Source: a virus. From it: 34,988 bases of DNA. A model generated the notes under the pieces. The model searched no databases, had not been told where the DNA came from, and saw nothing but the letters and a program-made list of their open reading frames with translations. How positions within the stretch are numbered: the stretch's first letter is position 1; every line of letters begins with the position of its first letter. A program made the position numbers and the translations under genes. Shown one piece after another: positions 387 through 34,611 of the stretch. The stretch spans positions 1 to 34,988 of the IMG/VR virus record IMGVR_UViG_3300046533_000103; one strand, written 5' to 3'.

Positions 387-2835
387 CATCATAGTCCCAA
401 CCAAAAAGCATCCTTTGGCAAATTGTGGGGAATGTCCTTTGTACAACCAAAGATGTGCACCCACAGCAGGACCTTTGGATGCGAAGATTGCAGTAGTATC
501 AAGGAGTCCTGGTAAATGGGACGTTCTACATAAAACTCCATTCGCAGGGGAGTCTGGTAAGGTTCTCGATCACTTACTAGGTTTGTATGGAGTGAATAGG
601 GAAGAAGTAATCACCACGAATGTCGTGTTGTGTAAAACGGACGATCCGCCAAAGGAAGCAATCAATGCCTGCCGACCACGACTTGAATCTGAAATTAAGA
701 ATTGCACCACCGTTATCGCTGCGGGAGTTGAGGCGGTTACAGAACTTACTGGAAGAAAAGGATTGGGCGGTACGAGAGGTTACGCACACTTGCGTTATTC
801 TAACGGACGGACCCAACGTGTTATTGCTACTAACAATCCAGCCATCGTTCTAAGGGATGATTCGACATTCAATAACTTAGTCAAAGACTTTGGATTGGCT
901 TTAGCTCCAAAGCCTCAACCAAAACTCCCCCAGGTGAGGTGGACGAACAATGTCGCAGAGGCAAAACAATGGATCAAATCCACCGGAAGTAATCTGTATA
1001 ATCCCCTCGCGGTCGATATCGAGACAAAGGGTTTGCGGGCTGATGCTGATATCGTCGCTATTGGATTCTCTGCCGATGGTAGTAAAGCGTTCTCTGTGGG
1101 AGAATACCCCCTACGAGACGACGATTTCTTTAGAAATTATATTACCCCGTTCGTTAGCGGACAATCCAAGTATCTCGGCCACAATTATAAGTTCGATGTT
1201 AGGAACCTTAGGTGGCACGGAATCAACGCAAGAGTAGACCATGATACTATGCTGCTCTCCTGGGCATTGGATGAGCGCAGCGATGAAGAACAAGTCCATC
1301 GTCTTGAGTATCTTTTGATGAGTGAGTTTGGTTGGCCGAACTATGAGCCAAAGGAAGTTGTAGCATACAAGTCAGCAGTTAAACGACTTGAGAAAGAATT
1401 ACGATTTAAAGAATTAGCGGCGTTGGAAGTACCTGATGAACTTTATCGGTATAACGCCCTAGATGCGGCAGGGACAGCGCAGCTCTTTCCTCTACTAAAG
1501 CAGCGCGCTATAGACGATAACGTTTACCAGGTATATAAACGTTATCTGATCCCTGCCGCAAATGCTTTGATCAAGATGGAGTTGCAGGGAATAGCATACA
1601 ATACCGAAGCAGCGTTCGATCTGCTAGAGGAACAAGTATGGCCTGCACTTAACGAATTGAAAACACAGTTACAATGGATCATAGGTAAGGGAGACTACAA
1701 TCCAAATTCCGCCCCACAGAATGCTGCGTTGGTTTACGACGAATGGAATATCCAGCATGGCATTAGGCTTCCGCAGGGGAAAGAACGATCAGTTGACAAG
1801 TCGGTATATACCGAAATCAAAGCCGGAAGATTTGTTATTGGCGGCGGTGAGATTGAGACGAAGGCTGATCGTAAAGAAACTGCAATCAGATGGGCAGAAA
1901 AGTTCGCGGACTTCAAAGCATTAGATAAGCAACGCTCTACTTACATTGAAGGAATGATTCCAGTTGCAATCCACAACGGAGATAGACTGTTTACTAACTT
2001 TAAGTTGCACAATACCGTGTCCGCCCGACTCTCATCTAGCGGACCTAATCTCCAGAACATTACTAGAGTTAAACCAGAACTTCCAAATATCAGAGAACTC
2101 TTTGTTGCAAGTCCTGGATGTACTTTGCTCAATGCCGACTATAGCCAAGCCGAGCTACGAACTATTGGTAAACTGTCAAGTGACCCTGAGTTCAGGCGGG
2201 TCTACTCCGAAGGAATTGACTTTCACTCACTTGTTGCCGAGCGATTCTATGGCCCAGGATTCACCAAAGAAAACAGACAAACCGCCAAAAACATAAACTT
2301 CGGTGTTGCATATCAACAGACACCAGAGACGTTCCAAGAGAAGCATGGTATACCAGTTGAAGAAGCACGTCCATTCGTGGAATGGTGGTGGCAGAACTTC
2401 CCCACAGTCCGCGAATGGACCAACAACGTCACACTAGATGTACTTAAGGGTGAAGTTGTTAGTCCATTCGGGTACAAGCGTAGGTTCCCACTAATCACGA
2501 AAGAGAACAAGAATGCCGCTATACGTGAAGGTATTAATTTCTTACCACAGAACATCGCCGCTCAGCTTTGTCTCCTTGCTCTTGTTGAGCTTGTTAATGA
2601 GTTCGATTTTACCATTGCTGCCGTACTTCTTAATGTCCATGATTCTCTACTTTTTGATATACGAAGTGATCATCTTCTTCGGTGCGCTGTTCATATTAAA
2701 GAGGTCATGGAATCTGTAGCAAAGAGAGAACTAGGATGGACTGATATTCCATTTGATGTTGACCTGCAAATAGGACCTAACTGGGGAAACTTAGAACCAT
2801 ATGAAATCAATACACAAAAGGAGCGTCATGGATAA
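379..2835 (+). CDS. Family A DNA polymerase with N-terminal UDG-like domain
   Basis: This is the phage replicative polymerase. Numbering below uses the longer 828-residue form from the ATG at 349; the ATG at 379 (residue 11) is preferred because GGAGGAAAG lies upstream and it overlaps the previous stop by only 8 nt. Residues about 20-185 resemble family-4 uracil-DNA glycosylase: CxxC at C26/C29, then NVVLC (C95) and C108, the four cysteine positions that hold the 4Fe-4S cluster in that family. The usual GEAPG motif reads SRSPG, and HPS reads NPA, so glycosylase activity is doubtful. Residues about 217-390 are a DnaQ-like 3'-5' exonuclease with DIET (D223, E225), HNYKFD (about 278-283) and YNALD (368-372). 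The polymerase domain has motif A DYSQAELR (597-604), motif B RQTAKNINFGVAYQ (643-656) and motif C VHDS (763-766), where HDE is more usual. No 5' nuclease domain is present. The polymerase call is very secure; the role of the N-terminal domain is open. Confidence 0.95.
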   Translation: MTSIIVPTKKHPLANCGECPLYNQRCAPTAGPLDAKIAVVSRSPGKWDVLHKTPFAGESGKVLDHLLGLYGVNREEVITTNVVLCKTDDPPKEAINACRPRLESEIKNCTTVIAAGVEAVTELTGRKGLGGTRGYAHLRYSNGRTQRVIATNNPAIVLRDDSTFNNLVKDFGLALAPKPQPKLPQVRWTNNVAEAKQWIKSTGSNLYNPLAVDIETKGLRADADIVAIGFSADGSKAFSVGEYPLRDDDFFRNYITPFVSGQSKYLGHNYKFDVRNLRWHGINARVDHDTMLLSWALDERSDEEQVHRLEYLLMSEFGWPNYEPKEVVAYKSAVKRLEKELRFKELAALEVPDELYRYNALDAAGTAQLFPLLKQRAIDDNVYQVYKRYLIPAANALIKMELQGIAYNTEAAFDLLEEQVWPALNELKTQLQWIIGKGDYNPNSAPQNAALVYDEWNIQHGIRLPQGKERSVDKSVYTEIKAGRFVIGGGEIETKADRKETAIRWAEKFADFKALDKQRSTYIEGMIPVAIHNGDRLFTNFKLHNTVSARLSSSGPNLQNITRVKPELPNIRELFVASPGCTLLNADYSQAELRTIGKLSSDPEFRRVYSEGIDFHSLVAERFYGPGFTKENRQTAKNINFGVAYQQTPETFQEKHGIPVEEARPFVEWWWQNFPTVREWTNNVTLDVLKGEVVSPFGYKRRFPLITKENKNAAIREGINFLPQNIAAQLCLLALVELVNEFDFTIAAVLLNVHDSLLFDIRSDHLLRCAVHIKEVMESVAKRELGWTDIPFDVDLQIGPNWGNLEPYEINTQKERHG

Positions 2836-3007
2836 GCACGGTAATCCAGGCTGTTCCTGCGGCACAGACGAAGAACATGAAGCTCTAGTTGCTAGAGTTA
2901 ATGAGTCCTATCTGCAAGACGATGATCGTTACATATTGCGCCTAAAACAGAACGCATCCATACTAAGAGCTAAGGTAGTTATACAGTTAAATGGACACAA
3001 TAATTAA
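2828..3007 (+). CDS. Hypothetical 59-residue protein
   Basis: A small unknown protein. The ATG at 2828 is chosen because AAAGGAG (2817-2823) lies four bases upstream, and because the start overlaps the polymerase stop (2833-2835) by 8 nt, a junction style also seen between the first gene and the polymerase. An earlier in-frame ATG at 2801 lacks such a site. The N-terminus has two closely spaced cysteines (CSC) after a Gly-rich turn, followed by an acidic/basic helical segment; there is no membrane segment. It is probably co-translated with the polymerase. I do not recognise a family. Confidence 0.6.
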   Translation: MDKHGNPGCSCGTDEEHEALVARVNESYLQDDDRYILRLKQNASILRAKVVIQLNGHNN

Positions 3008-3018
3008 TTTCCTGAGTA

Positions 3019-3127
3019 CCTCTGTAAGGCTCGACGAGCGCCGCTACGGGGCGCGGCGGGCGGGACGTTTAAGGGTGTCAATTTGCGACAGCTTCCGCTC
3101 CTGGTCGCTCCTCGCGGCTTACAGAGG
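3019..3127 (+). ncRNA. GC-rich hairpin island (candidate structured RNA)
   Basis: The arms CCTCTGTAAG (3019-3028) and CTTACAGAGG (3118-3127) are perfect inverted repeats. The stem continues inward with CGACGAGCG (3032-3040) facing CGCTCCTCG (3106-3114), with one mismatch, giving about 19 pairs over 22 positions. Inside are further small hairpins: GCCGC (3040-3044) with GCGGC (3053-3057), and TGTC (3076-3079) with GACA (3087-3090). The island is much richer in GC than the genes on either side. No target-site duplication is seen at its edges. It may be a transcript structure, a small RNA, an origin-like cruciform or a relic of inserted DNA. The pairing is seen directly; the RNA call is inference. 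Confidence 0.45.
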
Positions 3128-3131
3128 CAGG

Positions 3132-3540: not shown

Positions 3541-4005
3541 ATGCACAAGTATCTATCACTTGATCCTGGCGTAACGACTGGCTTCTGTTTAGCAATCCTC
3601 GATCAACGTATATTGTATGTATCATGTGACCAAGAGAAGTTCTCCCACAGGGAGTTGTGGGATTTCTTGAATGAGATTCAACCAGATCATGTAGTCTGTG
3701 AATCGTTCGAGTACAGAAACAATAACCACCGTGATAATCTCGAGCTTTACTCACTAGAGATGATCGGGATTACGAAACTCTTTTGCGATCCTGTAATGCA
3801 GAATGCTGCGAAAGGGAAGGGGTTTTATACAGACAATAAACTAAAGAAGATGGAACTGTATGTTCCAGGCAAAGGGCACGGTAGAGATGCCATGCGCCAT
3901 TTACTCCACTGGTTTACGTTCGGACCTGGATACAAATACAACATGCCAGATACTTATTTTTCGCTGGCACAATTCGAGACACTTCTCATTAAGGGAGATA
4001 TTTGA
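3541..4005 (+). CDS. RuvC-like Holliday junction resolvase
   Basis: A 154-residue RNase H-fold endonuclease that should cut branched DNA formed in phage replication or recombination before packaging. The acidic metal-binding residues fit the family: D8 in LSLDPGVTTG, E54 in VVCESFEY, and D116 in GHGRDAMRH near the C-terminus. The length matches small phage RuvC-like proteins. The ATG lies one base after the stop of the preceding gene and has no strong Shine-Dalgarno site of its own, so translation is probably coupled. The next gene starts in the last codons at TTG 4002. The fold assignment is good; exact substrate preference cannot be read from sequence. Confidence 0.82.
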   Translation: MHKYLSLDPGVTTGFCLAILDQRILYVSCDQEKFSHRELWDFLNEIQPDHVVCESFEYRNNNHRDNLELYSLEMIGITKLFCDPVMQNAAKGKGFYTDNKLKKMELYVPGKGHGRDAMRHLLHWFTFGPGYKYNMPDTYFSLAQFETLLIKGDI

Positions 4006-5393: not shown

Positions 5394-6134
5394 CTATAGG
5401 TATCTCTTCACCGTGTATGATCCATGTCCGAATCTAGCTTGGACCGCAGTTTCCACAGACATACTCACAAGCTTCGGACCACTATCTGATCCGTGACTAC
5501 AGAGCATTGGATCATCACGATCTGAGATAGAATAGACGAGGGCTGTATGATGACCGGGCCACTTACCCCAGATCACTACATCAGCAGGGACAGCATTGTA
5601 AATGGCAATGGAAGTTCCGTTATCAAGCAACGTTCCTGTATAACCTTGCCCATTGTATCTCAGGCCATTAGGATCAGGTCCTCCTGCCCAACAATACAAT
5701 GTTGTAACAAACTCAGAGCAATCCGTGTACCACGGTAGCGCCTGTGGGGAAGTTAACTTATCCATCGGCCGAACTTGTGCATAGTGGATGGAAGGTTCGT
5801 TAGTAACTCCCCACTTCATATACTTCACAATCTTGTCACGGATTGCCTGACCCTTATCAATTACCTTAAGTCTCTTGTCACGAAGGATTTGATTCTCTTC
5901 CGGCAGCGGTTTCGCGCCAGTAAGATAATTCAAGAGAGTCTGTCCCCCACAGTGATTAATTTGATCGTCTGGATAACCTAGACGATACTTTGCGACAGCG
6001 CAAGCGTTACCTGTTGATCCTCCGAAGATGCCATCAATAGGTCCGTTGTATAACTCAGCAGCTTGCAAAGCTTTCTGAATCCTTTTAATCTCGTCTGCCT
6101 TAGCAAATGGATTTGTAACGCAATAAGTTTTCAT
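5394..6134 (-). CDS. Endolysin: PG-binding plus NlpC/P60 peptidase
   Basis: A 246-residue cell-wall hydrolase for host lysis. Residues about 8-72 resemble the PG_binding_1 fold (AxxIKRIQKAL, GPIDGIFGGST). Residues about 95-246 form an NlpC/P60-type cysteine peptidase: the catalytic Cys is C139 in YTDCSEFV, the histidine is in PGHHTALVY (H195/H196), and a SHGSDSGP segment follows near residue 214. Such domains cut stem peptides of peptidoglycan. There is no signal peptide, consistent with holin-dependent release. The gene leads the lysis cassette, with the small membrane gene starting one base after its stop. No mycolyl-arabinogalactan esterase (LysB) is visible in the window. Confidence 0.88.
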   Translation of the reverse strand: MKTYCVTNPFAKADEIKRIQKALQAAELYNGPIDGIFGGSTGNACAVAKYRLGYPDDQINHCGGQTLLNYLTGAKPLPEENQILRDKRLKVIDKGQAIRDKIVKYMKWGVTNEPSIHYAQVRPMDKLTSPQALPWYTDCSEFVTTLYCWAGGPDPNGLRYNGQGYTGTLLDNGTSIAIYNAVPADVVIWGKWPGHHTALVYSISDRDDPMLCSHGSDSGPKLVSMSVETAVQARFGHGSYTVKRYL

Positions 6135-7087: not shown

Positions 7088-8310
7088 TAGTTAAGTAACC
7101 TGTATCTGAGGAATGATCCCGCATGAACAATAACAGGAGTACCGGAAGCACCACTGACAGCTTGACAAAACTCAAATCTGAATATACCTCCAGCACCCGC
7201 ATGAGCACCCCGTAGAATTGCGACCCTTTTATTAGTTGCTGTACCAGCTGCTCCACGTAATGTTGAATCCGTTAAAGTTGTACTTAACCAACCTCCAATT
7301 GGAGTTACCCTTCCAGTACCAAAAATATTCAAAGCACCATGCATCTGAGATGTGGATTCATACCCTCCCAAGGAAATACCACCAGCAGTACCTCCCGTGG
7401 GATTTGAATAAATAACCACAATATCTATTTCGTAAAATTTTCCTGACACTGTTGTGAAGAATAATTCATTATCATCTAGGATGCTATTGCCTCCAATAGA
7501 TCTATCAGCGGCTTTAAATATAACTGCTGTCCAAGGATACGGCTCCACTGTCTCTACTGATCGCATCAGTTGTTGCCATTCTCCGAATGCAAACCCCCAC
7601 AGTGCTTTATCACCGGTTCCAAACCTTGAAAATTCACGCCAGCTACCACCTGTAAATGCCCATACACTTTTTGCGGCAGGACCATGAAATGTAACATCGC
7701 CTACGGAAGTTACTAAGGCATCAGCAAATGTCGGCGGCATTGGGAAGACTCCGCCGTTGAACATACTAAGATCAGTAGAGGTATCATCAAACTTGAGAAG
7801 ATCGCTAGCACCATATGAAGTTCCGATTTTGATGTTTCTAATCAATACTATTTGATGATAGTCGTTAGAAGTAGAAGAATGCCCAATTGTCATTGTACCT
7901 GCTGCTGATGAAGTCGTAAAAGAGTAGGATGCAGTAACAGCACCGATTTTAGGTGCATGGCCATGAGCTAGCTCCACAGGTAGCCAAGTATCAGCAATAA
8001 TTGGTGTAGTGAATACATCGTTGGGAAATGAGGCATTTAAATATTGTACCCAAAAGATAGCAACTCCCGAGTCCGCTGTCCATAAAACTTCGATTTGACT
8101 CGACTCTTCTGCTCTGTGATCAAATATTTTTGTTCCGGTAATATGATCTAAATAGAGATCAATAGATGCTTGAGGTATATAAATTTCGAAATAGAAGTAC
8201 CACCCGGTAGCCATTGCAGGTAAAGCATGAAACAAAGCAGCACTAACCGTATCAGCATCCACATCGGGATCGTAGATTGGCACTGGATCGAATTCTATGT
8301 ATGTGCTCAT
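7087..8310 (-). CDS. Tail-tip protein with shared C-terminal domain
   Basis: A 407-residue protein. The ATG at 8310 is chosen over an upstream TTG because it gives an ATGA overlap with the preceding gene. Residues about 1-185 look like a lectin/concanavalin-type beta sandwich (GWYFYFEIYIP, VLIRNIKIGTS, LKFDD). Residues about 190-255 are a linker with two short Trp-containing repeats (SVWAFTGGSWREFSR, ALWGFAFGEWQQLMR). Residues about 257-407 are the first of three tandem paralogous domains (WTAVIFKAADR, ELFFTTVSGKFYEID, GAHAGAGGIFRFE, HAGSFLRYRL). It is probably a fibre or minor tail protein with a peripheral domain duplicated into the next two genes. Confidence 0.7.
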   Translation of the reverse strand: MSTYIEFDPVPIYDPDVDADTVSAALFHALPAMATGWYFYFEIYIPQASIDLYLDHITGTKIFDHRAEESSQIEVLWTADSGVAIFWVQYLNASFPNDVFTTPIIADTWLPVELAHGHAPKIGAVTASYSFTTSSAAGTMTIGHSSTSNDYHQIVLIRNIKIGTSYGASDLLKFDDTSTDLSMFNGGVFPMPPTFADALVTSVGDVTFHGPAAKSVWAFTGGSWREFSRFGTGDKALWGFAFGEWQQLMRSVETVEPYPWTAVIFKAADRSIGGNSILDDNELFFTTVSGKFYEIDIVVIYSNPTGGTAGGISLGGYESTSQMHGALNIFGTGRVTPIGGWLSTTLTDSTLRGAAGTATNKRVAILRGAHAGAGGIFRFEFCQAVSGASGTPVIVHAGSFLRYRLLN

Positions 8311-12435: not shown

Positions 12436-12916
12436 GCCACACGTAATCCGCGGAAGTATTCCGATAGAAGTACGGTCTGAAAGACTTGAAGGTCATTGTC
12501 ATCTTACCACCAGAAGGTGACAGTCCTCCACGAGGAATCGTGGGAGCAGATTCAACCACCACAGGGATCGTCCAATCCTCTGTAATACCTGCTGGTCTAA
12601 TGGTAAGTGTTCCTTGCGTTCTACTTGTCTGGACAGTAGTAGGAGCAACCATGAGCTTCTGCAACGTACTATGCCAGAACGTGTGAAAGTTCTGTGGGGT
12701 GTCGGCAAGCACATCAGCTTCGATATAAGTATGCAGCATAGTGTAGTAGGTGAAGGTTGCCCAGGAAGCATTCCCCTCCATGTGGGATCGGTCCGTAGAT
12801 TCCTCTCCCACTTCGTAATGACAATCAGTCAAGGCAATATAGCCCGATGATGTGATTGCCATTAGGAAGTCAACGGTCTGTGCGACGTTATTCGTGAACT
12901 GAAATTTATCGTACAT
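12428..12916 (-). CDS. Distal-tail-like minor tail protein
   Basis: A 162-residue protein encoded immediately after the tape measure (TAATG junction at 12916), the standard place of the distal tail protein that caps the tube. It is beta-rich, with an aromatic N-terminus (YDKFQFTNN) and an IALTDCHYEVGEE segment, and ends in a strand-rich tail (GKMTMTFKSFRPYFYRN). At 162 residues it is shorter than the two-domain distal tail proteins of many Gram-positive siphoviruses, so it may represent only the ring-forming part. The assignment rests mostly on order and size, not on a diagnostic motif. Confidence 0.55.
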   Translation of the reverse strand: MYDKFQFTNNVAQTVDFLMAITSSGYIALTDCHYEVGEESTDRSHMEGNASWATFTYYTMLHTYIEADVLADTPQNFHTFWHSTLQKLMVAPTTVQTSRTQGTLTIRPAGITEDWTIPVVVESAPTIPRGGLSPSGGKMTMTFKSFRPYFYRNTSADYVWHV

Positions 12917-18837: not shown

Positions 18838-19190
18838 TATCCATCACCTTCCTCTGTGGGAGGTGTCTCTGTCGTTCCTGTCGTTCCTGTAACTGTAGTT
18901 CCGAATGATGGAGCAACAGGTTGTTCAACCTGAGGTTCCTCGGGCTGTTCAGGAGGCACAGGTGCTTCCCAACCCTCAGGAGTCTCAAACTCTGCACTAC
19001 CCGAAACTTCCATCTCTTCCATCTCACCTAGTACATTCTCGATAGTGTTGTTGTTCATGGTGAAGAACACCTGTTCCATATTTGGATCGACCTCGATGCT
19101 TCCACCATTCTCAACAACACCAATCCCTACGATACCCACAGGGATTCCTTGTGGGTATGCAGACAAGTCTACGCTCACGTTAAGGCCCAT
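18837..19190 (-). CDS. Small tail-region protein with Pro/Glu/Thr-rich tail
   Basis: A 117-residue protein. The first 70 residues form a compact domain (GLNVSVDLSAYPQGIPVGIVGIGVVENGG). The rest is low-complexity and acidic, rich in Pro, Glu and Thr (PPEQPEEPQVEQP, TGTTGTTETPP), and probably disordered. I recall similar small proteins between the tail terminator and major tail genes of other actinophages, without known function. It overlaps the tail terminator gene by 11 nt and the major tail gene by 1 nt (TAATG). A role as a minor tail component is inferred from context. Confidence 0.6.
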   Translation of the reverse strand: MGLNVSVDLSAYPQGIPVGIVGIGVVENGGSIEVDPNMEQVFFTMNNNTIENVLGEMEEMEVSGSAEFETPEGWEAPVPPEQPEEPQVEQPVAPSFGTTVTGTTGTTETPPTEEGDG

Positions 19191-23977: not shown

Positions 23978-25335
23978 TATGCTTGTGTTGGACCTTTGGT
24001 TGTGTTACCCTGCCCACCATTAGCAGAAACATCTGCTGTGGGTGCAGAATTGGAGTTGTTATTTGTAGGACCTGGAGGAACAATAGGAGTCTGTTCCTTT
24101 CCTTTCTTGAGCGGAATATCGAACAGCTTACGCATGTACTGTTCTGTGTCGATATCTGGCGTCAAGATATTGTTATGGAACAAGTTAGCCATCGCTGCGG
24201 CAGACTGTTGCATATCGCGCGCCTGACCAATGTTCCGAACTTTCATCTGTGGGAATACGTCCGTCTCGAAGTTGAACTTGACTAACTTCGGAATGAGGAA
24301 CATATTGAAGAAGTCACAAACAGCTTCTGCAATGTACCAGACTGACTTATAGAACAAGTCAGTCTGTGCGCCTGACGTAGCTCTACCTCCGCCGGCAGAC
24401 AATCCTAGCATCATGAACTCTGCAAAGACATTGAGCATGATGAGAATGTCATGATGGTTCGCTGAGCCTAGTACATCAACTAGGTTCGTATGAATCTCTG
24501 CGAACTCAATCTCGTAACCTGGTGGTAGCGTAATGAAGCTGCGCTCATTAGTACGCAGGTTACTGAGCATCTCATTCATTGCATCTTTGTCTGCCTCACG
24601 ATAACCAGGAGGCAACTTACCCACAGGGACGCCGATGCCGTGCCTTTCTTTCTGAATGGCATCTACTTTGTACAGGTGAGTCTTATAGTACCAGTGAGGA
24701 TACGCGGACCGTAGTAATGATTCTCCGAGATGATCGTCACTGTCTCCAATAGAGAATATAATTGCCTTCTCGATTGGTATGACGATTTCATCACTCTTAC
24801 CGTCGCCCCTGAGGGCAATCTGATAAATGTTCTGCGGTCCGCCATTTTCATCATACTCGATCTTCTGAATCGTAGGCCCTGGTCTATAGGCCAGTTTCTT
24901 AAGTAGGTTGTACTTCTTACGGTTAGCCATACTTCTATGAGGCGCCCATGAACCTGTTGTGTAAACTGGTTCGATGACGGCGCAACCATGTTGGTACATC
25001 TTCAAGACCCTATTCAGGACATACTGCCAAGGTGAAGATAGGTTCTCGAAAAGATTGAAGTGAACAAAGTCAGCAACATCTTCTGCTTGTTGATCTTCAC
25101 CAATAGGATCAATATAGAAGTCTGCTGATTGGATCGGTGTCTTGCCTGCACGAAGGCTTACGGAAATCACAGCGTCAGTCTTGTTCATGTAGTCATACTG
25201 ACGTAGTGCCTGTACTCTGTTAAAGAGTGTAGGCACCATATCCCTTAATTGCAGGGAGATGGACGAGCCTAGCTCATTTGTGAAAGAGGCAGGAACCTCC
25301 TCAGCACCCCTGGATACGTATTTTGTCTCGCTCAT
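23977..25335 (-). CDS. Portal protein (DUF935 / Mu gp29-like)
   Basis: A 452-residue portal subunit, which forms the ring through which DNA enters and leaves the capsid. Features fitting the family include the N-terminal crown and stem region (MNKTDAVISVSLRAGKTPIQSADFYI), the LKMYQHGCAVIEPVY stretch, a conserved AIIFSIGDSDDHLGESLLRSAYPHWYYK segment (about residues 190-220), KERHGIGVPVGKLP, and the helix around NVFAEFMMLGLSAGGG. The C-terminal 40 residues are a Pro/Asn/Gln-rich disordered tail. It lies between terminase (5-bp gap) and protease (TAATG), the standard order. Confidence 0.87.
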   Translation of the reverse strand: MSETKYVSRGAEEVPASFTNELGSSISLQLRDMVPTLFNRVQALRQYDYMNKTDAVISVSLRAGKTPIQSADFYIDPIGEDQQAEDVADFVHFNLFENLSSPWQYVLNRVLKMYQHGCAVIEPVYTTGSWAPHRSMANRKKYNLLKKLAYRPGPTIQKIEYDENGGPQNIYQIALRGDGKSDEIVIPIEKAIIFSIGDSDDHLGESLLRSAYPHWYYKTHLYKVDAIQKERHGIGVPVGKLPPGYREADKDAMNEMLSNLRTNERSFITLPPGYEIEFAEIHTNLVDVLGSANHHDILIMLNVFAEFMMLGLSAGGGRATSGAQTDLFYKSVWYIAEAVCDFFNMFLIPKLVKFNFETDVFPQMKVRNIGQARDMQQSAAAMANLFHNNILTPDIDTEQYMRKLFDIPLKKGKEQTPIVPPGPTNNNSNSAPTADVSANGGQGNTTKGPTQA

Positions 25336-25340: not shown

Positions 25341-26762
25341 TTAATCGTATCCTATCTTAGTATCGAGTACCATCTGTGTCTTTTCCGTAAAGTAGCTATG
25401 ACTTTCCGACCGATCAGTAGGATGGTACACGTCACTCAGGCTTGACCCAGCTCCGAGAATATAATATTGCGAATAGAAGTATCTCAAAGCGTCCGGGCCA
25501 TGATCGTCATAGTCAACCTGTCCTTCTTTAGGATTCAGGCCCTCTTTCTCAGGCTTTCTGCGTAGGCCCATCATTTGCCTGATTAGCTCAACGCAGCCTC
25601 GATCAATGTAAAGTTTAGGTAGTCCATTAGGCTGAATTTTCAATCCACGCCTAACAGCTTCTACTCCCTGTTCCCAAGGTACTTGAGCAGAGAAAATCTG
25701 ACCTAGCACTAAGGTAAGGTTAGCAATAGAATCCGCACCAGCAGGGTCAGCAAACATACCATCGAGACGCCAGTTAGGAGGATTCCATCTATTCAATAGT
25801 GCGTGACCGTGCTCCCAAGAGGACAGATACTTAACTTGATATTCTCTCCATACATACACGTTGTCGTCTGGATCGACCATGATATCAAGACATACGAAGG
25901 GTGCGGTAAAGCCGTGATCGAATACCCAAAAATTTTTCCAGGCAGGGTTATATTCGATGTCTTTGACATGGATTCGTTCGTCGAACTCGTCATATATCGA
26001 ACCAGCGATATTTGTGAACTTAGCTGCATACTGTTGCTCCCAGTAACTTCGGCTCACGATATTGAAGATGCGTACAAGCTCCTGGTTACATTCACAGATA
26101 CCAGGAATATGTAGACAATCTTCTCTAAAGCCGCCGGGGAATTTGGCATTGTTCAACCATGTAGGATACTGCCAGGATGCGTAGTCTTTCATGTTCGGCA
26201 TCTGACCGAATTGCCATAGGGCATGAATCCAGTTGAAGCCCTTAGGTGTAGTTGGGAATGTAGCCCAACCTAGATTATCTGAGAGCGCCGGCTCAACTCT
26301 ACTCTCCCATGTTTCTAGAGAGTGTTCAGCAGCCTCAGACATAATTACTCCGTGCAATCCCTCACCCAGCAAGGAATCTGGGTTCGTAGCACTAACGCAT
26401 TCAACAACAGTATTCCATGGAAAGGTAATTCGCATGTCTCCTTGCTTAACATTATTGGAACTCTTGATCTTGTCAGACATATTAAGCTTCCGTCGATCGG
26501 TAAAGGCATTATGGACAATGCGAAACTCCTTCTCGGCCAGCTTATAGGTAGGCCCACAAATCCAGTAGTAAGCATCTGGAATGAAGCAAGCCTCGATTAA
26601 GTCAATCGCAGCCATAGTACTCTTACCGAATCTACGTCCACATACGGCAGAACGAAATCTCGCTCCCGAATCATGGAATTCGTACTGTGCAGCGCTGTGG
26701 GGTGTGTAACCTAATTTCTCCCACAGGACCTCGCGATTGATAGTTGATTCTTTACGCGACAC
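25341..26762 (-). CDS. Terminase large subunit
   Basis: A 473-residue packaging motor with ATPase and nuclease domains. Walker A is GRRFGKST (residues 42-49). The Walker B region reads LHGVIMSEAAEH (about 136-147), with Ser in the place of the usual Asp before the catalytic Glu (E143). A coupling-type TTP follows near 171. The RNase H-like nuclease begins around WVFDHGFTAPFVCLD, with further acidic residues in FADPAGADS and DYDDHGPDALRY (D417-D424). The start is GTG (26760-26762), abutting the preceding TAG, with GAAGGG nine bases upstream. No small terminase is visible in the window. Confidence 0.88.
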   Translation of the reverse strand: MSRKESTINREVLWEKLGYTPHSAAQYEFHDSGARFRSAVCGRRFGKSTMAAIDLIEACFIPDAYYWICGPTYKLAEKEFRIVHNAFTDRRKLNMSDKIKSSNNVKQGDMRITFPWNTVVECVSATNPDSLLGEGLHGVIMSEAAEHSLETWESRVEPALSDNLGWATFPTTPKGFNWIHALWQFGQMPNMKDYASWQYPTWLNNAKFPGGFREDCLHIPGICECNQELVRIFNIVSRSYWEQQYAAKFTNIAGSIYDEFDERIHVKDIEYNPAWKNFWVFDHGFTAPFVCLDIMVDPDDNVYVWREYQVKYLSSWEHGHALLNRWNPPNWRLDGMFADPAGADSIANLTLVLGQIFSAQVPWEQGVEAVRRGLKIQPNGLPKLYIDRGCVELIRQMMGLRRKPEKEGLNPKEGQVDYDDHGPDALRYFYSQYYILGAGSSLSDVYHPTDRSESHSYFTEKTQMVLDTKIGYD

Positions 26763-27074
26763 CTATACATACCCTTCTACTGAGAATCGGATTGGTCCTA
26801 ATCTTGGAGCCTCTGCTGTGGGAAGGCCAGTAAGCGTAAGGTACAACTCGTAATCGTTCCTTCCACCCCAAGCCTCCACAGGCTCAATCAAGCACTTTAC
26901 CCTCATGCCGTCTACGATCACGTCGTTAGATGCCGTTACAACTTTCTCAACGTAACCGGAATCCCAAATGTCGAAAGTTGCGGCAACTAGCTCTGTAACC
27001 TCTCCTAGCGTTTCTGTAACATCGACAATTAGGTACTCGCTTGTTCCCATGTTGAACTTCAGAATCTGACTCAC
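26763..27074 (-). CDS. Small structural protein ending in PRLGP motif
   Basis: A 103-residue protein with a GTG start in a GTGA overlap with the preceding gene, and AAGGAG eleven bases upstream. It is beta-rich; the end YELYLTLTGLPTAEAPRLGP ... resembles the end of the protein at 33987-34283 (FRLFVHFTVGSETPRLGP ...). The pattern (about 100 residues, immunoglobulin-like strands, a PRLGP close) recalls small phage head-tail or baseplate spacer domains such as those binding fibres, but no precise family is claimed. The TAG stop abuts the terminase GTG, so it is the last gene before the packaging and head module. Confidence 0.6.
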   Translation of the reverse strand: MSQILKFNMGTSEYLIVDVTETLGEVTELVAATFDIWDSGYVEKVVTASNDVIVDGMRVKCLIEPVEAWGGRNDYELYLTLTGLPTAEAPRLGPIRFSVEGYV

Positions 27075-30000
27075 CTGTACACCAACTCCTTGGTTGCTTC
27101 GTTGGTGTGTTTAAACACCTTGTAATCATAGTGTTTCCCACCCTTAGTGAGGGTCACATGTTTATGGGCACTGACCGTATAGGCTGCCACTTGTACCTGA
27201 TACGACCAGTGCCTATAAACATGTACCTCAGTGACAAGTAGCGCAATCGCTGTCCTCTTGATTGCGAACTCAGTTGCATGGCCTGTGTCTGTAACAGTGA
27301 TGAAAGCACGCAGTAGTGATGTATCAGTTCCGTGTGCTGTCTCGGTACCATCAATGGGGAGGTTAGCGTAACCAAGTTCTGTAGCTGTACCGAAGTCCTG
27401 GACCCTAAGCGTAAGTAGGTTAGTCTCTGTGGTAGTCCCACTATCTGCAAAGCTAAAGGTAGCCGTGAGTGTTGCTGTCTCTGTGCTAGTGCCTGTATCG
27501 GATGAAGTAGCTGCACGGCTTCCTGTTTCACTTGAGGTTCCTGACTGAGCATCACTAATTGCTGCGGCAAGTACCTGTGCTTCACTATCCGTTCCTGTGT
27601 CAGTACCACTTACATTGATGACACCGATTGCAACGGAACCACTCTCACTATCCGTTCCTGTATCAGTCGTTGTAAGCGATGCATGTAGTGACTCTACATC
27701 ACTCGCGGTACCTGTATCCGTTGCTGTAGCCGACTCCTTAACTGTTGCTGTCTCTGTAGTGGTTCCGGTATCAGTCGTATTGACTGGTATATTGTTGGTC
27801 CCTTGATCGAACCCGCTACCAGTATCAACGTTGCTGATTACTGCCGTAAGTGTGAAGGCTTCGCTATCAGTTCCCGTATCGGGAGTAGAGATAGCAACTG
27901 TGAGTATTTGAGTCTCTGTAGTTGTACCAGCATCCGGTAGGAAGATGTAACTGTGTCCGGCCTCGGAAGCTGTCGACGAATCGCTATCTGTAATAGATAC
28001 ATGGAGCGTGATGGTGTCAGAGGTGGTTCCCGTATCTACTGTAGCGAGACTGATCGTACCATTCTCAGATGACGAACCAGACTCAGGATTCGAGATAGTA
28101 GCTGTTAATGCTGTTGCATCACTAGCCGATCCCGTATCACTACCACTGATCGGGATATTGTTGGCTGATGCTGTTTCACTAGTCGTGCCCGTATCAGAGC
28201 TAGTCAAAGAGGCAGTGATAGTTGCCGCATCACTACCACTGCCTGTATCACTAGCGCTGGCTGTTGCAACTAGTATAGTTGCTTCGCTAGTTGTCCCACT
28301 GTCCTGGTTAGCTAGATAAGTCTGCGTATTCTCGGAAGATGTGCCTGTATCTGTTCCTGTAAAGGCGGCAGTGAGTACATTAGCTTCACTGTCGGAACCT
28401 GTATCGCTCGAGGATGGGCGTGCTACTTCACTAGCTGCCTCGGTAGCAACATTTGTACCACTAGCTCCGGCAACGTAACTTGCGAGGACTTCTGATGAGC
28501 TAAGGATCGTACTGTAGATGATGGGCTCATCAATTGTCCCATCGAACGAGTCAATCCCTGCTGTAGAACGCCGGCCGACAACAAAGTTACCGGGTGCTGC
28601 GTTAAAGTCGAATGTGAATGTCTTGGTACCCTTCGACACCCCATTGACATACAGTTCGGCTACCTTTGTGGAGCCGTTGAATGTCAGGACAATATGTGCT
28701 ACCGTGCCAGTACCAATACCTACTGATGACCATGTTTGATTTGTCTGATTCGAGTCCGTCCAGAAGGAGATATTGTCGGTTGTAGCATCAAATCTAAGGA
28801 TCGGTTGGTTGAGGTTTGCGTCGCCACCGAAGATAGCATCATTACTAGTATTCGTATTCCGCTTAATCCAGAACTCGAATGATCTAGTTGATAGCGTCGC
28901 AAATGGGTTGTAACCAGATGTTACACATTGGTTAGAGCCATTGAAAAGAATAGATGCGTCGGAATCACTTACAAGAAGTGAAGCAGCAGTTACAGGAGAT
29001 AGGACATATGTTCCTACTCGATTATTCCCTGACTTATCTGCTGCTGTACCTGTACCCGGTACTGCTTCATCGAACCGCCAGTAAAGTAATGGACTACGCG
29101 ATAGGACAAGTGCAGAGTAGTTCGGGGCGTCTACATTAACTAGAATAGCAGTTAGTGTATTAGCCTCAGCATCAGTACCAGTATCCGGTAGGACGATCTT
29201 ACGATCACTGATTGCTTCTGTGCCAGTACCACTATCAGCATCACTAATGACACGATTGCCTGTAGCATCTGTGCCTGCGCCCGTATCTGCTGAAGATAGG
29301 ACAACAGTAAGGATCGTTGTCTCACTGGTAGTTCCTGTATCCGTACCAGTAACGGAGTTAGAACCTATCCCCACAGAGCCAGTGTCGGATGCTGTACCTG
29401 TATCTGTGGAAGTGATTGCTACAGTGAGCGTGATAGCTTCACTGTCAGTTCCACTATCGCTGCTTGATGCCGTTGCTGTAAGTGTAGCAGCTTCACTATC
29501 TGTACCCGAATCTGTATTGCTGGCGGATGCAGATAGTGCAGTTGCCTCACTGATTGTTCCAGAGTCCTGGTTAGCTAAGTAGGTCTGAGTGTTCTCACTC
29601 GATGTACCTGTATCTGTGCCTGTGATTACGGCAGTAAGTGTGGTAGTGCCTTCAATCCCTGATCCGGTATCGGGTGTAGAGATAGCAACCGTGAGTGTCG
29701 CTGTTTCACTTGTCGTCCCTGTATCTGTTCCTGACTTTGCTGTTGCTCCAGTGTTAAGGGATTCTGGATCGCTTCCTGAGCCACTATCCGTAGATGTAAT
29801 CGCGGTCTTGAGTAGTCCGACTTCCTTACGGACGCCACCACCAGTAGCATTATCAATTGTAAGAGTATTGGAGTTGTAACCACCGAAGCCTACGTATGTT
29901 CCAGGAACGTTGAGTGGTGCTGAGTCAGTATACGGGTTGAAACCTGCAATAGCAGAACCGTCAGTAATAAGGAAGAAGTCTGCTCCAACCTTACGCAACG

Positions 30001-31336
30001 TGATAGTAGTACCTGCTGTATAGGCAATGCCTGAGACACCTTGGAGTGTCGTATATGCGTTTGCAATTCCTCGATAAAGAGTTGCCGTCAGCGAAATCAG
30101 GCTGTTGAACACCATGACCAGGACATAACCATCAAAGTTAGATGATCCTGGATTAAGTATCTGCACAAACAGCCATAGCTCAGCATTACCACCACTGCTG
30201 ATATCGTCCGGTGTTTTGATCGTTACGCTTATTTCCTGGTTGCTATCGAATGTAGCAGCATTCCATGCAGCCGAGTATCTTAATCCTGCACCAGCAGCTT
30301 TAGCTTCGTTGTTGAGAACGGACCAGCTAACAACTCCCACAGAGGGCATGATAGTCCAGTTGCCACCAAGTGTTCCAGCATTAGCACGATTGAAGTCATC
30401 TAGAAGTGTAGAGGAAGTTAATTCAAGACCATCTGCTGTGGGCTTTGATAGGATTGTATAATCAGTAGCTGATCCTGTATCAGCAGAGACACGTTTAATT
30501 GTTCCTGTTGTATCACTACCCGTTCCGCTATCAGTATCAGATTTAGACTGATTTAGAATGAAGACTGTGGCGACCTCTTCGCTAAGGCCGCCGACATAGA
30601 AATTATCAACGGTTAGGGTAGCAGAGTTGTATCCCCCAAAACCGGCAAATGTTGAAGCACCATTAAGTGCCGCTGCATCAGTATATCCGTTAAGACCTGT
30701 GATTGCAACGCCGTCAACAAGGAAGTATAGTAGATTACCATTCTTACGAAACGTAAAGACAGAACCCGAATGATAGCTAATTGCTGAAATACTCGGAAGA
30801 GGAGTTCCTGTACCAGAATTGAACCGATATAGACTTGCAGTAAGGGATGAGCTAGTGTCAAAGTTTAGGTTAAGAGAATATCCAGTAAAGTTAGATGAGA
30901 GGGACGATGTTACTACCTGTAGAAGTAGTTGGAATTGTGCAGTACCACTACCATCTACAGTTCCAAGTGTTACACTTACCTGCTCGTTACTAGTATACGT
31001 GTTATTAAACCAAACATTAGCATAAAATATACCTAACCCCGGAGCAATTGCCTGGTTGGAACTAATGCCCATAGTGGCACTTCCACCTGACAATGAAGGT
31101 ACTGCCGCCCAGTTAGCACCTAGTGAAGAACTATCTGCACGGTTGAAATCATCCCTAAGAACTGGGCTATCGAAGCTGAAAGTAACATCTTGTACTGTAA
31201 TAGAGATCGAGGCAACCTCGGTAGTTGTACCGTTGGTATCCGTACCACTAATAGGTGTACCGGGAGGCGATGCTGCATACCGCGCCTGCGGCATGATAAT
31301 TGGTAGTACAGGTACGCCTCTACCGAGTATTGCCAT
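27071..31336 (-). CDS. 1421-residue fibre-like protein with DTGT repeats and LamG domain
   Basis: The longest protein in the window. Domain order: a short N-terminal segment with a TDTNG repeat unit; a lectin-like beta domain (about 61-250, LRDDFNRAD ... FGGYNSATLTVDN); two to three repeat units; a second copy of the same domain (about 312-500, LLDDFNRAN ... FGGYNSNTLTIDN); about 12 repeat units (510-735); a LamG/concanavalin-like domain (about 739-960, LLYWRFDE, DGTIDEPIIY); about 22 more repeat units (970-1365); and a basic C-terminus. Repeat units follow [S/T]-D-[T/S]-G-[T/S]-x-[S/T]-[E/D] with a hydrophobic strand between. The alternating acidic residues might bind calcium; that is inference. 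Probably a capsid or tail fibre for surface attachment. It has a TAATG-free start 15 bases after the preceding gene. Confidence 0.75.
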   Translation of the reverse strand: MAILGRGVPVLPIIMPQARYAASPPGTPISGTDTNGTTTEVASISITVQDVTFSFDSPVLRDDFNRADSSSLGANWAAVPSLSGGSATMGISSNQAIAPGLGIFYANVWFNNTYTSNEQVSVTLGTVDGSGTAQFQLLLQVVTSSLSSNFTGYSLNLNFDTSSSLTASLYRFNSGTGTPLPSISAISYHSGSVFTFRKNGNLLYFLVDGVAITGLNGYTDAAALNGASTFAGFGGYNSATLTVDNFYVGGLSEEVATVFILNQSKSDTDSGTGSDTTGTIKRVSADTGSATDYTILSKPTADGLELTSSTLLDDFNRANAGTLGGNWTIMPSVGVVSWSVLNNEAKAAGAGLRYSAAWNAATFDSNQEISVTIKTPDDISSGGNAELWLFVQILNPGSSNFDGYVLVMVFNSLISLTATLYRGIANAYTTLQGVSGIAYTAGTTITLRKVGADFFLITDGSAIAGFNPYTDSAPLNVPGTYVGFGGYNSNTLTIDNATGGGVRKEVGLLKTAITSTDSGSGSDPESLNTGATAKSGTDTGTTSETATLTVAISTPDTGSGIEGTTTLTAVITGTDTGTSSENTQTYLANQDSGTISEATALSASASNTDSGTDSEAATLTATASSSDSGTDSEAITLTVAITSTDTGTASDTGSVGIGSNSVTGTDTGTTSETTILTVVLSSADTGAGTDATGNRVISDADSGTGTEAISDRKIVLPDTGTDAEANTLTAILVNVDAPNYSALVLSRSPLLYWRFDEAVPGTGTAADKSGNNRVGTYVLSPVTAASLLVSDSDASILFNGSNQCVTSGYNPFATLSTRSFEFWIKRNTNTSNDAIFGGDANLNQPILRFDATTDNISFWTDSNQTNQTWSSVGIGTGTVAHIVLTFNGSTKVAELYVNGVSKGTKTFTFDFNAAPGNFVVGRRSTAGIDSFDGTIDEPIIYSTILSSSEVLASYVAGASGTNVATEAASEVARPSSSDTGSDSEANVLTAAFTGTDTGTSSENTQTYLANQDSGTTSEATILVATASASDTGSGSDAATITASLTSSDTGTTSETASANNIPISGSDTGSASDATALTATISNPESGSSSENGTISLATVDTGTTSDTITLHVSITDSDSSTASEAGHSYIFLPDAGTTTETQILTVAISTPDTGTDSEAFTLTAVISNVDTGSGFDQGTNNIPVNTTDTGTTTETATVKESATATDTGTASDVESLHASLTTTDTGTDSESGSVAIGVINVSGTDTGTDSEAQVLAAAISDAQSGTSSETGSRAATSSDTGTSTETATLTATFSFADSGTTTETNLLTLRVQDFGTATELGYANLPIDGTETAHGTDTSLLRAFITVTDTGHATEFAIKRTAIALLVTEVHVYRHWSYQVQVAAYTVSAHKHVTLTKGGKHYDYKVFKHTNEATKELVYR
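27244..28429 (-). repeat. Second DTGT-type repeat block (about 22 units)
   Basis: Codes for about residues 970-1365 of the 1421-residue protein. Units of about 14-20 residues start with DTG/DSG and a Ser/Thr-rich, Glu-containing loop followed by an LTA-I/V-type strand. One stretch (TDTGTSSENTQTYLANQDSGT) also occurs in the first block, with several synonymous codon differences. Confidence 0.85.
29132..29809 (-). repeat. First DTGT-type repeat block (about 12 units)
   Basis: Codes for about residues 510-735 of the same protein, between the second lectin-like domain and the LamG-like domain. Units are of the same type as in the second block. At the DNA level the block shows recurring CTGTATC-like and CAGT-rich words on the plus strand. 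Confidence 0.85.
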
Positions 31337-32018: not shown

Positions 32019-32028
32019 ATCTTCCTTT

Positions 32029-33783
32029 CTACCAGTATGCAGCTCTTACCACAGCAGAATTAGGACCGATCATTGGCATAGGTATTGGTTGAGCAAAAGC
32101 AGGTACTTGTTCTGTTACTGCGGCAGGTAAGATAACGTATGTATCGCCGGCTGCGGATGCAGTTGCCCCGTTGTAAGTAACTGTAACGTTACCGCCACTG
32201 GCTAATGCACCAGACCCACAGTCATCTACAAAGATACGGAAGCGCAATCGCTGACCTGCTGAAATGGATGTATCATCACCGGATACCCATGCAAAGTAAG
32301 CCGTATCAGAGATGTTAAGCTCGCCTACTAATCCGTATGTCGTGATCGCTTCAACGTTTGCAATCCCCCACACTGTAGCTCCTGAACCATCTCCTGCTGT
32401 AATAGCAATCTCTGCTTTGAGGCTTGCATTTAAGGTAGCGGCTGCTTCTAGGCCACGAATGTTAAACTTGGCTTTACCACCCAACGAAAAGGCATTCAAT
32501 GGTGGTGTATACCATTCGATTGCAGTACCACCTGAGGTTGCAGTTACTTGGATCGGTGTTACTGGCCCTGATGTAGCGTTCGTGACTGAGTTTACAGAAC
32601 CAGTACCAGGAGTTGTGAGTGCTTTCTTTTCAGTAGCACTACCTGGATTGATTGTTTCGGCGGTGTCGGTCAGGTAGTAGGTAGAAACCGAGCCAGCTAC
32701 CGACAAACCGAGCCAGTTATTTCCACCCGTCTCTGGTGTCCAGGTACTACCATTCCAACTATCAAATGCATTCCAACCTGTAGGTGATGAAGAAGAAACC
32801 CTAAGCCCAAAGGAGTTCACGCTGTCAATACCTCCTGTGCGCCTAAAGACAATCCAATATCTCGTTCCTACTACTAATGCGACATTACAGTTCCATGCAT
32901 AGAGAGTCGAAGTTGTCGTAAGAGAACTTCCTGCTACTGTCGTTACGGACCCTAAAACAGTCCCGGATGGGACTCCCGCACTATCTCCTTGAACTTCAAC
33001 AATCATGTTGTCAGTAGGTGATCCAGCTTTGTACGCAAACGCTGTAACTAATCCCAAAGTACCAAACGAGGAAACGAATGACTGGGCTAACATCGTGCGA
33101 CCACTCGCTGCTCCAAGAGCGACATTGGCGTTTTGTGTTCCCAGTGAACTCTGCTCAGGGCCAGGAGGATCGCCAGCAGACTCAAACGTTAGGTTCTCGG
33201 TGAACTGTATCCATGAATCACCTGCTGTTGATGCTGTGCTGCGATCATAATAAAATCTAGCCGGACCGGGACTAGCCATTGTTCCTGCATCATCGAAGTA
33301 AATGCGGATACGTAATCTATCTCCACGTTTACATGCTGTTGATGTTGGGGTAGCAGTAAAGTTAGCAGCAATAGGAGTCGTTAATGCCTCTTCGGTTATC
33401 CTAGCTGATTTAACGATCTGTGTTAATGTTCCATTAGCACCATCAATTTTCTCAATTACAAAATTAACAGCAACATTATCATTCATCGACGTCTCTGCTG
33501 CCCAGAGATTCGCAGTCACCGTTCCACTAATTGTAAAATCTCCACTGAGCGGTTCACTAATCCACTCAGCAGGTTGAACAGTAGAGATACCAATTACTTC
33601 CAAACCATTTGTAGGTCCTGTCACAGTAGTTACTGAGGATGCTCTATTGCCTGTTGTATCTACACCACGTGATTCGGACAATGCCAGTGCCTCCCAAAAT
33701 ACAGCAGTTCCTATGAGGTTAGCATCGTTATTTCCTCGGTGTATCGAAGCCTTAGCACTCGTAAACCACATCTGTTTAGCCAT
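32029..33783 (-). CDS. 584-residue virion protein with duplicated flanking domain
   Basis: A beta-rich protein of three parts. Residues about 60-200 and about 390-560 are related domains: each has an opening PAEWISEPLSGDFTISG / TAIEWYTPPLNAFSLGG, a middle RGDRLRIRIYFDD / AGQRLRFRIFVDD, and a closing STASTAGDSWIQF / ATASAAGDTYVIL. The central part (about 215-375) is a different beta sandwich with GRTMLAQSFVSS and RYWIVFRRTGG, like the choice-of-anchor/LamG-like domains. The protein is probably a tail or capsid appendage. The start overlaps the preceding gene by 8 nt. The duplication is seen directly; the function is inferred from context. Confidence 0.68.
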   Translation of the reverse strand: MAKQMWFTSAKASIHRGNNDANLIGTAVFWEALALSESRGVDTTGNRASSVTTVTGPTNGLEVIGISTVQPAEWISEPLSGDFTISGTVTANLWAAETSMNDNVAVNFVIEKIDGANGTLTQIVKSARITEEALTTPIAANFTATPTSTACKRGDRLRIRIYFDDAGTMASPGPARFYYDRSTASTAGDSWIQFTENLTFESAGDPPGPEQSSLGTQNANVALGAASGRTMLAQSFVSSFGTLGLVTAFAYKAGSPTDNMIVEVQGDSAGVPSGTVLGSVTTVAGSSLTTTSTLYAWNCNVALVVGTRYWIVFRRTGGIDSVNSFGLRVSSSSPTGWNAFDSWNGSTWTPETGGNNWLGLSVAGSVSTYYLTDTAETINPGSATEKKALTTPGTGSVNSVTNATSGPVTPIQVTATSGGTAIEWYTPPLNAFSLGGKAKFNIRGLEAAATLNASLKAEIAITAGDGSGATVWGIANVEAITTYGLVGELNISDTAYFAWVSGDDTSISAGQRLRFRIFVDDCGSGALASGGNVTVTYNGATASAAGDTYVILPAAVTEQVPAFAQPIPMPMIGPNSAVVRAAYW

Positions 33784-33982
33784 TATGCCACCACCTATGC
33801 TTACGTGTACCTACCACATACCAAGGCGGCCAACCATCAATGCGGAACCATATCCGTTGATAGAGTGGGGTATTCCTAGTGTCGATCATTTTCTCGAGCG
33901 TGCGGATACGCTCCGCTTGGGTTTCGACATTCACCCACAGTGAGGATATCTCGGCCTGTGCACTAGGGTCACGTATGGTCAT
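33776..33982 (-). CDS. Hypothetical 68-residue protein
   Basis: A small protein from ATG 33982 (MTIRDPSAQAEISSLWVNVETQAERIRTLEKM), chosen because the longer reading to 34009 uses TTG and lies inside the preceding gene. The first half is a coiled-coil-like helix. The second half is rich in Trp, Arg and Lys (RIWFRIDGWPPWYVVG). It might be an oligomerisation or attachment adaptor for the large virion protein whose ATG overlaps its stop by 8 nt. No family is recognised. Confidence 0.55.
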   Translation of the reverse strand: MTIRDPSAQAEISSLWVNVETQAERIRTLEKMIDTRNTPLYQRIWFRIDGWPPWYVVGTRKHRWWHNG

Positions 33983-33986
33983 AGGG

Positions 33987-34283
33987 CTAACTAACCAGCT
34001 CAATCCCAAACGGACCCAACCGTGGCGTTTCTGAGCCTACTGTAAAGTGAACGAACAAACGGAAGTTAACGTCGGGTGCCGCCGGCCATGTTGTTGTATT
34101 TACTAGGCAGTAAATGACCATGCCGGTAGCACTAGCAGCTACGTTAGTAACTACAGCAGTTCCGTCTAGTTTCGTAACATCGAACTGTGGACTACTGCTT
34201 GCAAGGTTTGTAATAGCACCTGAGCTATCAACTACAGTTACTTGCACACTCTCGATAGTTCCTCTGACGAGTCTAATTGACAT
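33987..34283 (-). CDS. Small structural protein, paralogue of 26763-27074
   Basis: A 98-residue beta-rich protein that begins with MSIRLVRGTIESVQVTVVD and ends with FTVGSETPRLGPFGIELVS. The end resembles that of the protein encoded at 26763-27074. The size and strand pattern suggest an immunoglobulin-like or BppU-like N-terminal domain, a type used to join fibres to virions. The ATG overlaps the preceding gene by 11 nt. The role is inferred; there is no direct evidence. Confidence 0.58.
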   Translation of the reverse strand: MSIRLVRGTIESVQVTVVDSSGAITNLASSSPQFDVTKLDGTAVVTNVAASATGMVIYCLVNTTTWPAAPDVNFRLFVHFTVGSETPRLGPFGIELVS

Positions 34284-34611
34284 TTAAGACCGCCGATACC
34301 CATCGTTGGCTATCAACAGAGTCCATAAAGCGACCTGTTGTTTCAGCTGGTGCGAGACTCCATTTACCTACCAAGTCCCCCACAGGAGTGATGTTCAGGA
34401 TCAATACTGCTGGGATAGGGGTTTCACTAGCTGTACCTACGTCAGGCATTTGGTATTTAATGTTAACCTGGTCAGTCCCAGCTCCTGTATCCAGGGTTGT
34501 TGAGCCTGACTTGGTAGAAAGGTCTGTAGCCGACCCAGTGTCAGGGGATATGTATTTTATACTGTATGTTTCTAGTTCAGACCCTGCATCACTACTTGAT
34601 ACGCTTGACAT
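34273..34611 (-). CDS. Virion protein carrying the DTGT-type repeat
   Basis: A 112-residue protein. The first 65 residues hold about four copies of the repeat seen in the 1421-residue protein (SSDAGSELET, SPDTGSATDL, LDTGAGTDQV, PDVGTASETP). The remainder (ILNITPVGDLVGKWSLAPAETTG) is a short beta segment, and the end overlaps the next gene by 11 nt. It looks like a shortened relative of the large fibre protein, either a split-off fragment or a partner built from the same unit. The repeat similarity is seen directly. Confidence 0.65.
   Translation of the reverse strand: MSSVSSSDAGSELETYSIKYISPDTGSATDLSTKSGSTTLDTGAGTDQVNIKYQMPDVGTASETPIPAVLILNITPVGDLVGKWSLAPAETTGRFMDSVDSQRWVSAVLNVN

Follow-up and report, generated by a model that had tools for sequence, protein, structure and literature searches.

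The stretch of DNA considered here, positions 1 to 34,988 of the IMG/VR virus record IMGVR_UViG_3300046533_000103 (34,988 bp, hereafter the window), belongs to a tailed phage, as indicated by a large terminase, a portal, a head protease, a major head protein and a tape measure recognized with PHROGs. A family A DNA polymerase with a uracil-DNA-glycosylase (UDG) domain is recognized with both PHROGs and Pfam. The closest named phages are remote, and the metagenomes that yielded its relatives are, to judge from their IMG sample numbers, presumably largely those of soil and rhizosphere. Dispersed over the window is the seven-base word CCCACAG, reading CTGTGGG on the complementary strand (hereafter the G-strand), which probably represents the template site of the phage's own primase, a protein of the archaeo-eukaryotic primase (AEP) type. 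An exact-match count, from which all copy coordinates below are taken, found 26 copies on the two strands, with 17 read on the plus strand as CCCACAG and nine as CTGTGGG; a preliminary description of the sequence had located 24 (16 and eight) and had placed the first and the last of them correctly. The copies, with the strand being that which reads CCCACAG, and the adjoining replication genes are as follows.

460..466, plus strand: CCCACAG copy
1094..1100, minus strand: CCCACAG copy
1713..1719, plus strand: CCCACAG copy
2401..2407, plus strand: CCCACAG copy; the relative L045 has the word at the corresponding position
3644..3650, plus strand: CCCACAG copy, common to the relative G001
5742..5748, minus strand: CCCACAG copy, common to G001
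5946..5952, plus strand: CCCACAG copy
7596..7602, plus strand: CCCACAG copy
12090..12096, plus strand: CCCACAG copy
12692..12698, minus strand: CCCACAG copy, common to G001
14573..14579, plus strand: CCCACAG copy
16463..16469, plus strand: CCCACAG copy
18854..18860, minus strand: CCCACAG copy
19135..19141, plus strand: CCCACAG copy
24036..24042, minus strand: CCCACAG copy
24247..24253, minus strand: CCCACAG copy
24620..24626, plus strand: CCCACAG copy, common to G001
26695..26701, minus strand: CCCACAG copy
26720..26726, plus strand: CCCACAG copy
26816..26822, minus strand: CCCACAG copy, common to G001
29370..29376, plus strand: CCCACAG copy
30336..30342, plus strand: CCCACAG copy
30436..30442, minus strand: CCCACAG copy
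32215..32221, plus strand: CCCACAG copy
33934..33940, plus strand: CCCACAG copy
34379..34385, plus strand: CCCACAG copy
1..24, plus strand: 3' end of the AEP primase-DUF3987 gene, from the overlap with contig L046
349..2835, plus strand: DNA polymerase I-type replicase with N-terminal UDG domain, in the replication module and adjoining the primase

Three null models agree closely on the number of copies to be expected. Dinucleotide shuffles of the window yield 3.7 +/- 1.9 copies, with 26 or more reached in 0 of 100; an order-2 Markov (trinucleotide) model yields 2.9, giving an observed-to-expected ratio (O/E) of about 9; and synonymous-codon shuffles yield 3.7 +/- 1.8, with a maximum of 10 in 500 runs, while a second set reached 26 in 0 of 300 and the expectation over both was 3.7-3.8. 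The earlier estimate of three to four expected copies is thereby confirmed. CCCACAG ranks first among all 7-mers of the window, with an approximately 7-fold excess and a z of 10.7, whereas the highest z reached by a 7-mer across 300 codon shuffles was 5.8. Neither the Markov nor the codon-shuffled background comes near 20 copies, and no other 7-mer is equally over-represented: the next-ranked words, CCCCACA and TCCCACA, are overlaps of CCCACAG, and the remaining top words have other causes. The single-base neighbors of the word mostly lie at or below expectation, with none near 26 and several absent, and because they lack the excess, all seven positions of the word matter.

The copies occur at a density of 0.74 per kb, or about one per 1.35 kb. 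All 26 lie inside called open reading frames (ORFs), none being intergenic, and all six classes of sense or antisense orientation and frame hold copies, in agreement with the mixed coding frame described previously. Gaps between sites look random in the window as well as in G001 and G015, with no regular spacing, and a proposed higher density to the right of 24 kb (12 of the 26 sites, in a part that makes up 31% of the window) falls short of significance (p = 0.08). The flanking bases, said to vary freely, roughly do so, save that flanks pooled over the close clade and its relatives display a weak extended context on the G-strand, consisting of pyrimidines 5' of the word, a G at +2, and a T-rich tract at about +4 to +7 on the 3' side.

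Enrichment of the word extends to relatives of the phage. CTGTGGG is also the top word of G001 (46 kb; 32 copies vs. 6.0 expected) and of G015 (31 kb; 16 vs. 2.0 expected), and contig L046 holds nine copies in 8.1 kb where 0.5 are expected. When positions are compared between the window and G001, only five of 14 alignable sites are shared, the conservation of random 7-mers being 15%. Most positions therefore turn over while the density is retained, indicating that the word itself is favored and not its positions. The preliminary exclusion of codon usage and paralogy as explanations is upheld. In more distant relatives variants of the word are enriched, namely, as read on the G-strand, CTGTGG in G003, G006, G007, G028, G032 and G033, CTGTGC in G009 and G016-G019, CTGTG in G022, and TTGTGG in G024. 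These family variants share a TGTG core.

The AEP primase-DUF3987 gene encodes a protein of 738 aa (L046:3835-6051), and because L046 overlaps window positions 1-2062 at 98% identity, the gene can be seen to end at window position 24. All 15 contigs with the replication module encode one primase of about 730 aa next to the polymerase. Among the seven primases scanned with Pfam, an N-terminal RepB_primase-like domain was found in all seven at a relaxed E-value, that of L046 lying below the curated cut-off, and DUF3987 was found in six. An AlphaFold2 model of the L046 primase was matched by Foldseek to RepB' of plasmid RSF1010 (3h20, E 4e-6; 3h25) and to the AEP domain of the cyanophage S-2L PrimPol (6zp9), the only matches in the PDB below E 0.001. 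Additionally, the primase motifs DLD, SSxxRxQ, and LLRVP are conserved, and a Gln in motif II has been reported for RepB'-like enzymes (PMC5862659). As judged from the predicted structure and these motifs, the genome appears to encode an AEP-fold primase resembling RSF1010 RepB'.

Published studies of AEP enzymes supply a template rule with which the word can be compared. The pRN1 protein ORF904 requires 5'-GTG-3' in its template, with the first two primer nucleotides pairing with the two bases directly 5' of this triplet; the template used in nuclear magnetic resonance (NMR) work was 5'-CTGTGCTCA-3', and the first substrates were ATP and dGTP (PMC8076596, PMC11009956). Similarly, the phage NrS-1 PrimPol prefers GTGA/GTGG (PMC8718748). 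The word can be laid out as CT-GTG-GG, and its variants as CT-GTG-G, CT-GTG-C and TT-GTG-G, such that each contains GTG with two template bases on its 5' side.

The association between word and primase was examined across named phages, among which the primase query finds homologous AEP domains in 132 records. For 16 AEP carriers and 10 non-carriers, all 136 tetramer cores were ranked by their best hexamer relative to codon shuffles. Satis was included among the carriers because of a tblastn match, although the local profile search missed it, and Shrew, fetched as a control, turned out to possess an AEP domain and was reassigned to this group before testing. TGTG ranks 1, 1, 1, 1, 1, 2, 2, 2, 2, 2, 5, 22, 34, 51, 115, and 118 in the carriers and 8, 12, 37, 54, 58, 60, 71, 103, 120, and 131 in the non-carriers; it is thus among the top five cores in 11 of 16 AEP carriers vs. 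0 of 10 phages lacking the domain (Mann-Whitney p = 0.0014 for the rank difference). The strong carriers infect Arthrobacter, Curtobacterium, Serratia, Pseudomonas, Mycobacterium, Brevundimonas, Gordonia, and Yersinia, and the named AEP phages of these eight host genera are topped by [CG]TGTG[CG]. Across hosts, the word class thus goes with the AEP primase, several of the carriers being exceptions.

Independent loci were fetched from IMG/VR with the primase profile, yielding 29 dereplicated AEP-positive loci, 19 of which lay outside the initial set, and were compared with 19 dereplicated T7-like loci (within L575-L654), which represent one clade. The median rank of TGTG is 9 in the 29 AEP-positive loci vs. 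73 in the T7-like loci (p = 1e-4), and 7 in the 19 new loci vs. the same 73 (p = 9e-5). CACA/TGTG is the core with the best mean rank in the AEP-positive loci, and CTGTGG and CTGTGC come first among the hexamers of the 19 new ones. When the T7-like loci were themselves scanned blindly for tetramers in excess of codon shuffles, GGTC came first, enriched 1.35-fold and elevated in 19 of 19, with GGTCT and TGGTC as the top pentamers. The T7 primase site is (G/T)2GTC (PMC12839067), which these words match, and enrichment of primase words is therefore not unique to AEP phages. The blind recovery of the T7 site, along with the new AEP-positive loci, is the strongest support for a primase site. In the same T7-like loci, TGAG/CTCA is the second most over-represented tetramer.

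Taken together, these data suggest, with a probability that we put at roughly 0.68 from sequence comparison, that the word is the template site of the phage's own AEP primase, stocked genome-wide. Specifically, 5'-CTGTGGG-3' would be the preferred single-stranded DNA (ssDNA) template site of the RepB'-like enzyme, the helical bundle of which would bind GTG(G); primer synthesis would begin opposite the CT immediately preceding GTG(G), with A-G as the first bases. Sites accumulated on both strands, at about one per 1.35 kb, would allow primers to be laid at Okazaki-fragment spacing wherever the lagging-strand template is exposed. We infer that the primase binds the word and that selection, or else biased repair or recombination, keeps it abundant. 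More broadly, the chances are even that the word stocked by AEP phages is exactly the template word of the primase that they encode, with word and specificity changing in step from lineage to lineage (CTGTGGG, CTGTGG, CTGTGC, GTGTGG, GTGTGC). In that case genome statistics would reveal the primase sites of uncultured phages, among them a seven-base site here that is longer than the known GTG triplet. A literature search that covered few subscription papers found no direct report of over-represented primase words in phages.

Several observations weigh against a primase site. A clear TGTG word was not found in the AEP-carrying family members G011, G021, G023, and G026, nor in the named carriers Satis, CN1A, and Commonplace, and the AEP-positive phages are not phylogenetically independent. 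Within the family the distribution of the word departs in places from the primase/polymerase tree: G011, which lacks the word, groups beside G009 and G016-18, and G019, which has CTGTGC, possesses a polymerase like those of G023 and G024. Among phages without the AEP domain, Wollypog (TGTG rank 8) and the T7-like L639 (rank 6) come close to the carriers. The primase model is of moderate quality (pLDDT, or predicted local distance difference test, 66.5), with the AEP domain and the following helical bundle modeled well and the helicase part poorly. Comparison of the strands, one of the checks proposed in the preliminary description, shows the excess to be present on both and modestly skewed (123:74 for CCCACAG), and no convincing strand switch marking an origin was found; the one clear switch, that of CTGTG in G022, coincides with a change of gene direction. 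Finally, the codon shuffles leave codon-pair bias uncontrolled.

The preliminary description had offered four roles for the word, of which that of a primase word is now favored. A Chi-like word of the host is improbable, though the best placed of the alternatives; here CTGTGGG would regulate a host enzyme of the RecBCD/AddAB type and be carried by the phage to escape degradation and to recombine. Like Chi (E. coli GCTGGTGG), the word is dispersed, G-rich, asymmetric and in excess irrespective of position, occurring on both strands and in any frame with positions that turn over. Phages without recombinases or RecBCD inhibitors carry Chi in excess (PMC3784561), and the imperfect agreement between variants and replication genes is as different hosts would predict. 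However, no host of matching density was found for the word: in approximately 960 sampled bacterial genomes (Verrucomicrobiota, Acidobacteriota, Pseudomonadota, Actinomycetota, and 50 mixed) it reaches at most about 0.30 per kb, as opposed to 0.74 in the phage. A search for the host by clustered words gave matches that, among those listed, were dominated by repeats, and a capsid-profile search of 84,980 bacterial genomes for a prophage or host returned no relative. The word follows the AEP-bearing module across hosts: AEP phages from at least eight host genera, Gram-negative and Gram-positive, carry TGTG words, and in AEP-lacking phages that infect several of these genera TGTG has a lower rank. 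Furthermore, members of the family have a Sak4-type recombinase of their own, and the O/E of about 9 (trinucleotide model) lies well above the 2.3-4.8 reported for Chi in lambdoid phages (PMC3784561).

Slightly less probable still is recognition of the word by another protein of the replication module that is co-inherited with the AEP primase, for example an ssDNA-binding protein, the DUF3987/RepA helicase loader, or Sak4 using it as a loading word. Since the module is inherited as a unit, its other genes correlate with the word as well, and the three AEP carriers without a detected PolA homolog are among the weakest. However, phages with relatives of the polymerase, Sak4, SNF2, and nuclease and no AEP lack the word, as seen in Xenia2, from which the polymerase is absent, and in Bacillus phage BSP7, where homologs of polymerase, Sak4, SNF2, and PD-(D/E)XK accompany a TGTG rank of 131 of 136. 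The profile match is moreover limited to the AEP part in most named carriers, so the helicase partner differs, and GTG is the published recognition triplet of AEP enzymes. BSP7 Sak4 was also used as a query for AEP-lacking control loci and has no relatives in IMG/VR. BSP7 (L478-L480) has a strong word of its own, CCGCAG/CTGCGG (56 vs. 18), possibly the site of a different primase.

A site of restriction, methylation or repressor binding of the stoperator type is very unlikely. Some actinophages carry dispersed operator sites, and some methyltransferases typically use asymmetric words of 6-7 bp. Against this, the copies are intragenic, in all frames and both orientations, and unrelated to gene starts; over-representation is the opposite of restriction avoidance; and no methyltransferase or repressor was recognized among the proteins scanned, leaving the restriction and regulator roles proposed earlier without support. 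A DnaA box, which shares CCACA, was considered and rejected, there being no conserved TTAT upstream and TCCACAG being only weakly above expectation. A purely statistical origin in codon usage, repeats or composition, for which the uncontrolled codon-pair bias leaves some room, is the least credible explanation given a 7-fold excess above every 7-mer in 300 shuffles, in all frames and at new positions in relatives.

Other words were noted in the same genomes. CCTGTATC, present in 15 copies vs. 1.8 expected at window positions 27071-31336, was rejected as a second dispersed word, as it falls mostly in one frame of a large Laminin_G_3-containing structural protein and encodes a DTG peptide repeat. 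Words containing GCCGGC are also over-represented in the window, G007, G015, and G022 (L262-L264), with CGCCGGC found 39 times vs. 11.6 expected in G022 and nine vs. 2.5 in the window. Near 25.1 kb of G022, the orientation of CTGTG switches from 35% to 72% on the plus strand close to a flip in gene direction. In G009 (L035-L037), ACGGGAG/AACGGGA is enriched (37 vs. 12), partly in intergenic DNA and in one relative, and may be a regulatory or ribosome-binding repeat. G023 (L265-L267), in which an AEP primase is present, has CAAGTC (65 vs. 27) and AACGTT (104 vs. 52) as top words, neither with GTG, a change for which a shift of primase specificity is possible. The top words of the AEP-carrying Clavibacter phage CN1A (L432-L434) are CGTGCG (107 vs. 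55) and CCGTGC (101 vs. 60), which have a GTG core with C replacing T at the start position.

Viewed as a primase site, the word has counterparts in characterized systems. Both pRN1 ORF904 (GTG) and NrS-1 PrimPol (GTGA/GTGG and TTTGGTTA) are plasmid or phage replication enzymes of the RepB'/PrimPol-type AEP fold that use GTG with the template of the initiating dinucleotide just 5', while the putative site here is longer (CTGTGG/CTGTGGG with T-rich 3' context), variable between lineages, and in genome-wide excess. RSF1010 RepB' is the nearest solved structure to the phage primase (3h20, 3h25). RSF1010 uses ssi sites at its origin, in contrast to which the word here is dispersed over the genome. 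The sites of T7 gp4, (G/T)2GTC, are likewise short and asymmetric, and the statistic used here shows them to be in excess in T7-like genomes; the T-rich 3' context of the G-strand resembles the 3' A/T-rich discriminator of T7 sites, of which the T7 genome has about 26 candidate active ones (PMC12839067). In contrast, gp4 is a TOPRIM/zinc-binding primase of unrelated fold, and enrichment in T7-like phages is weaker (1.35-fold for GGTC and about 2-fold for GGGTCT, as compared to about 7-fold here).

The blind recovery of GGTC in T7-like phages suggests that primases other than those of the AEP type follow the principle as well. Few primases have a known recognition sequence, which in each case was established through biochemistry. 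If phages keep the word of their primase over-represented, the specificity of many phage primases would be predictable from sequence, and the lagging-strand priming sites of uncultured phages could be mapped; words that are over-represented in phages irrespective of position need not, then, be Chi or uptake signals.

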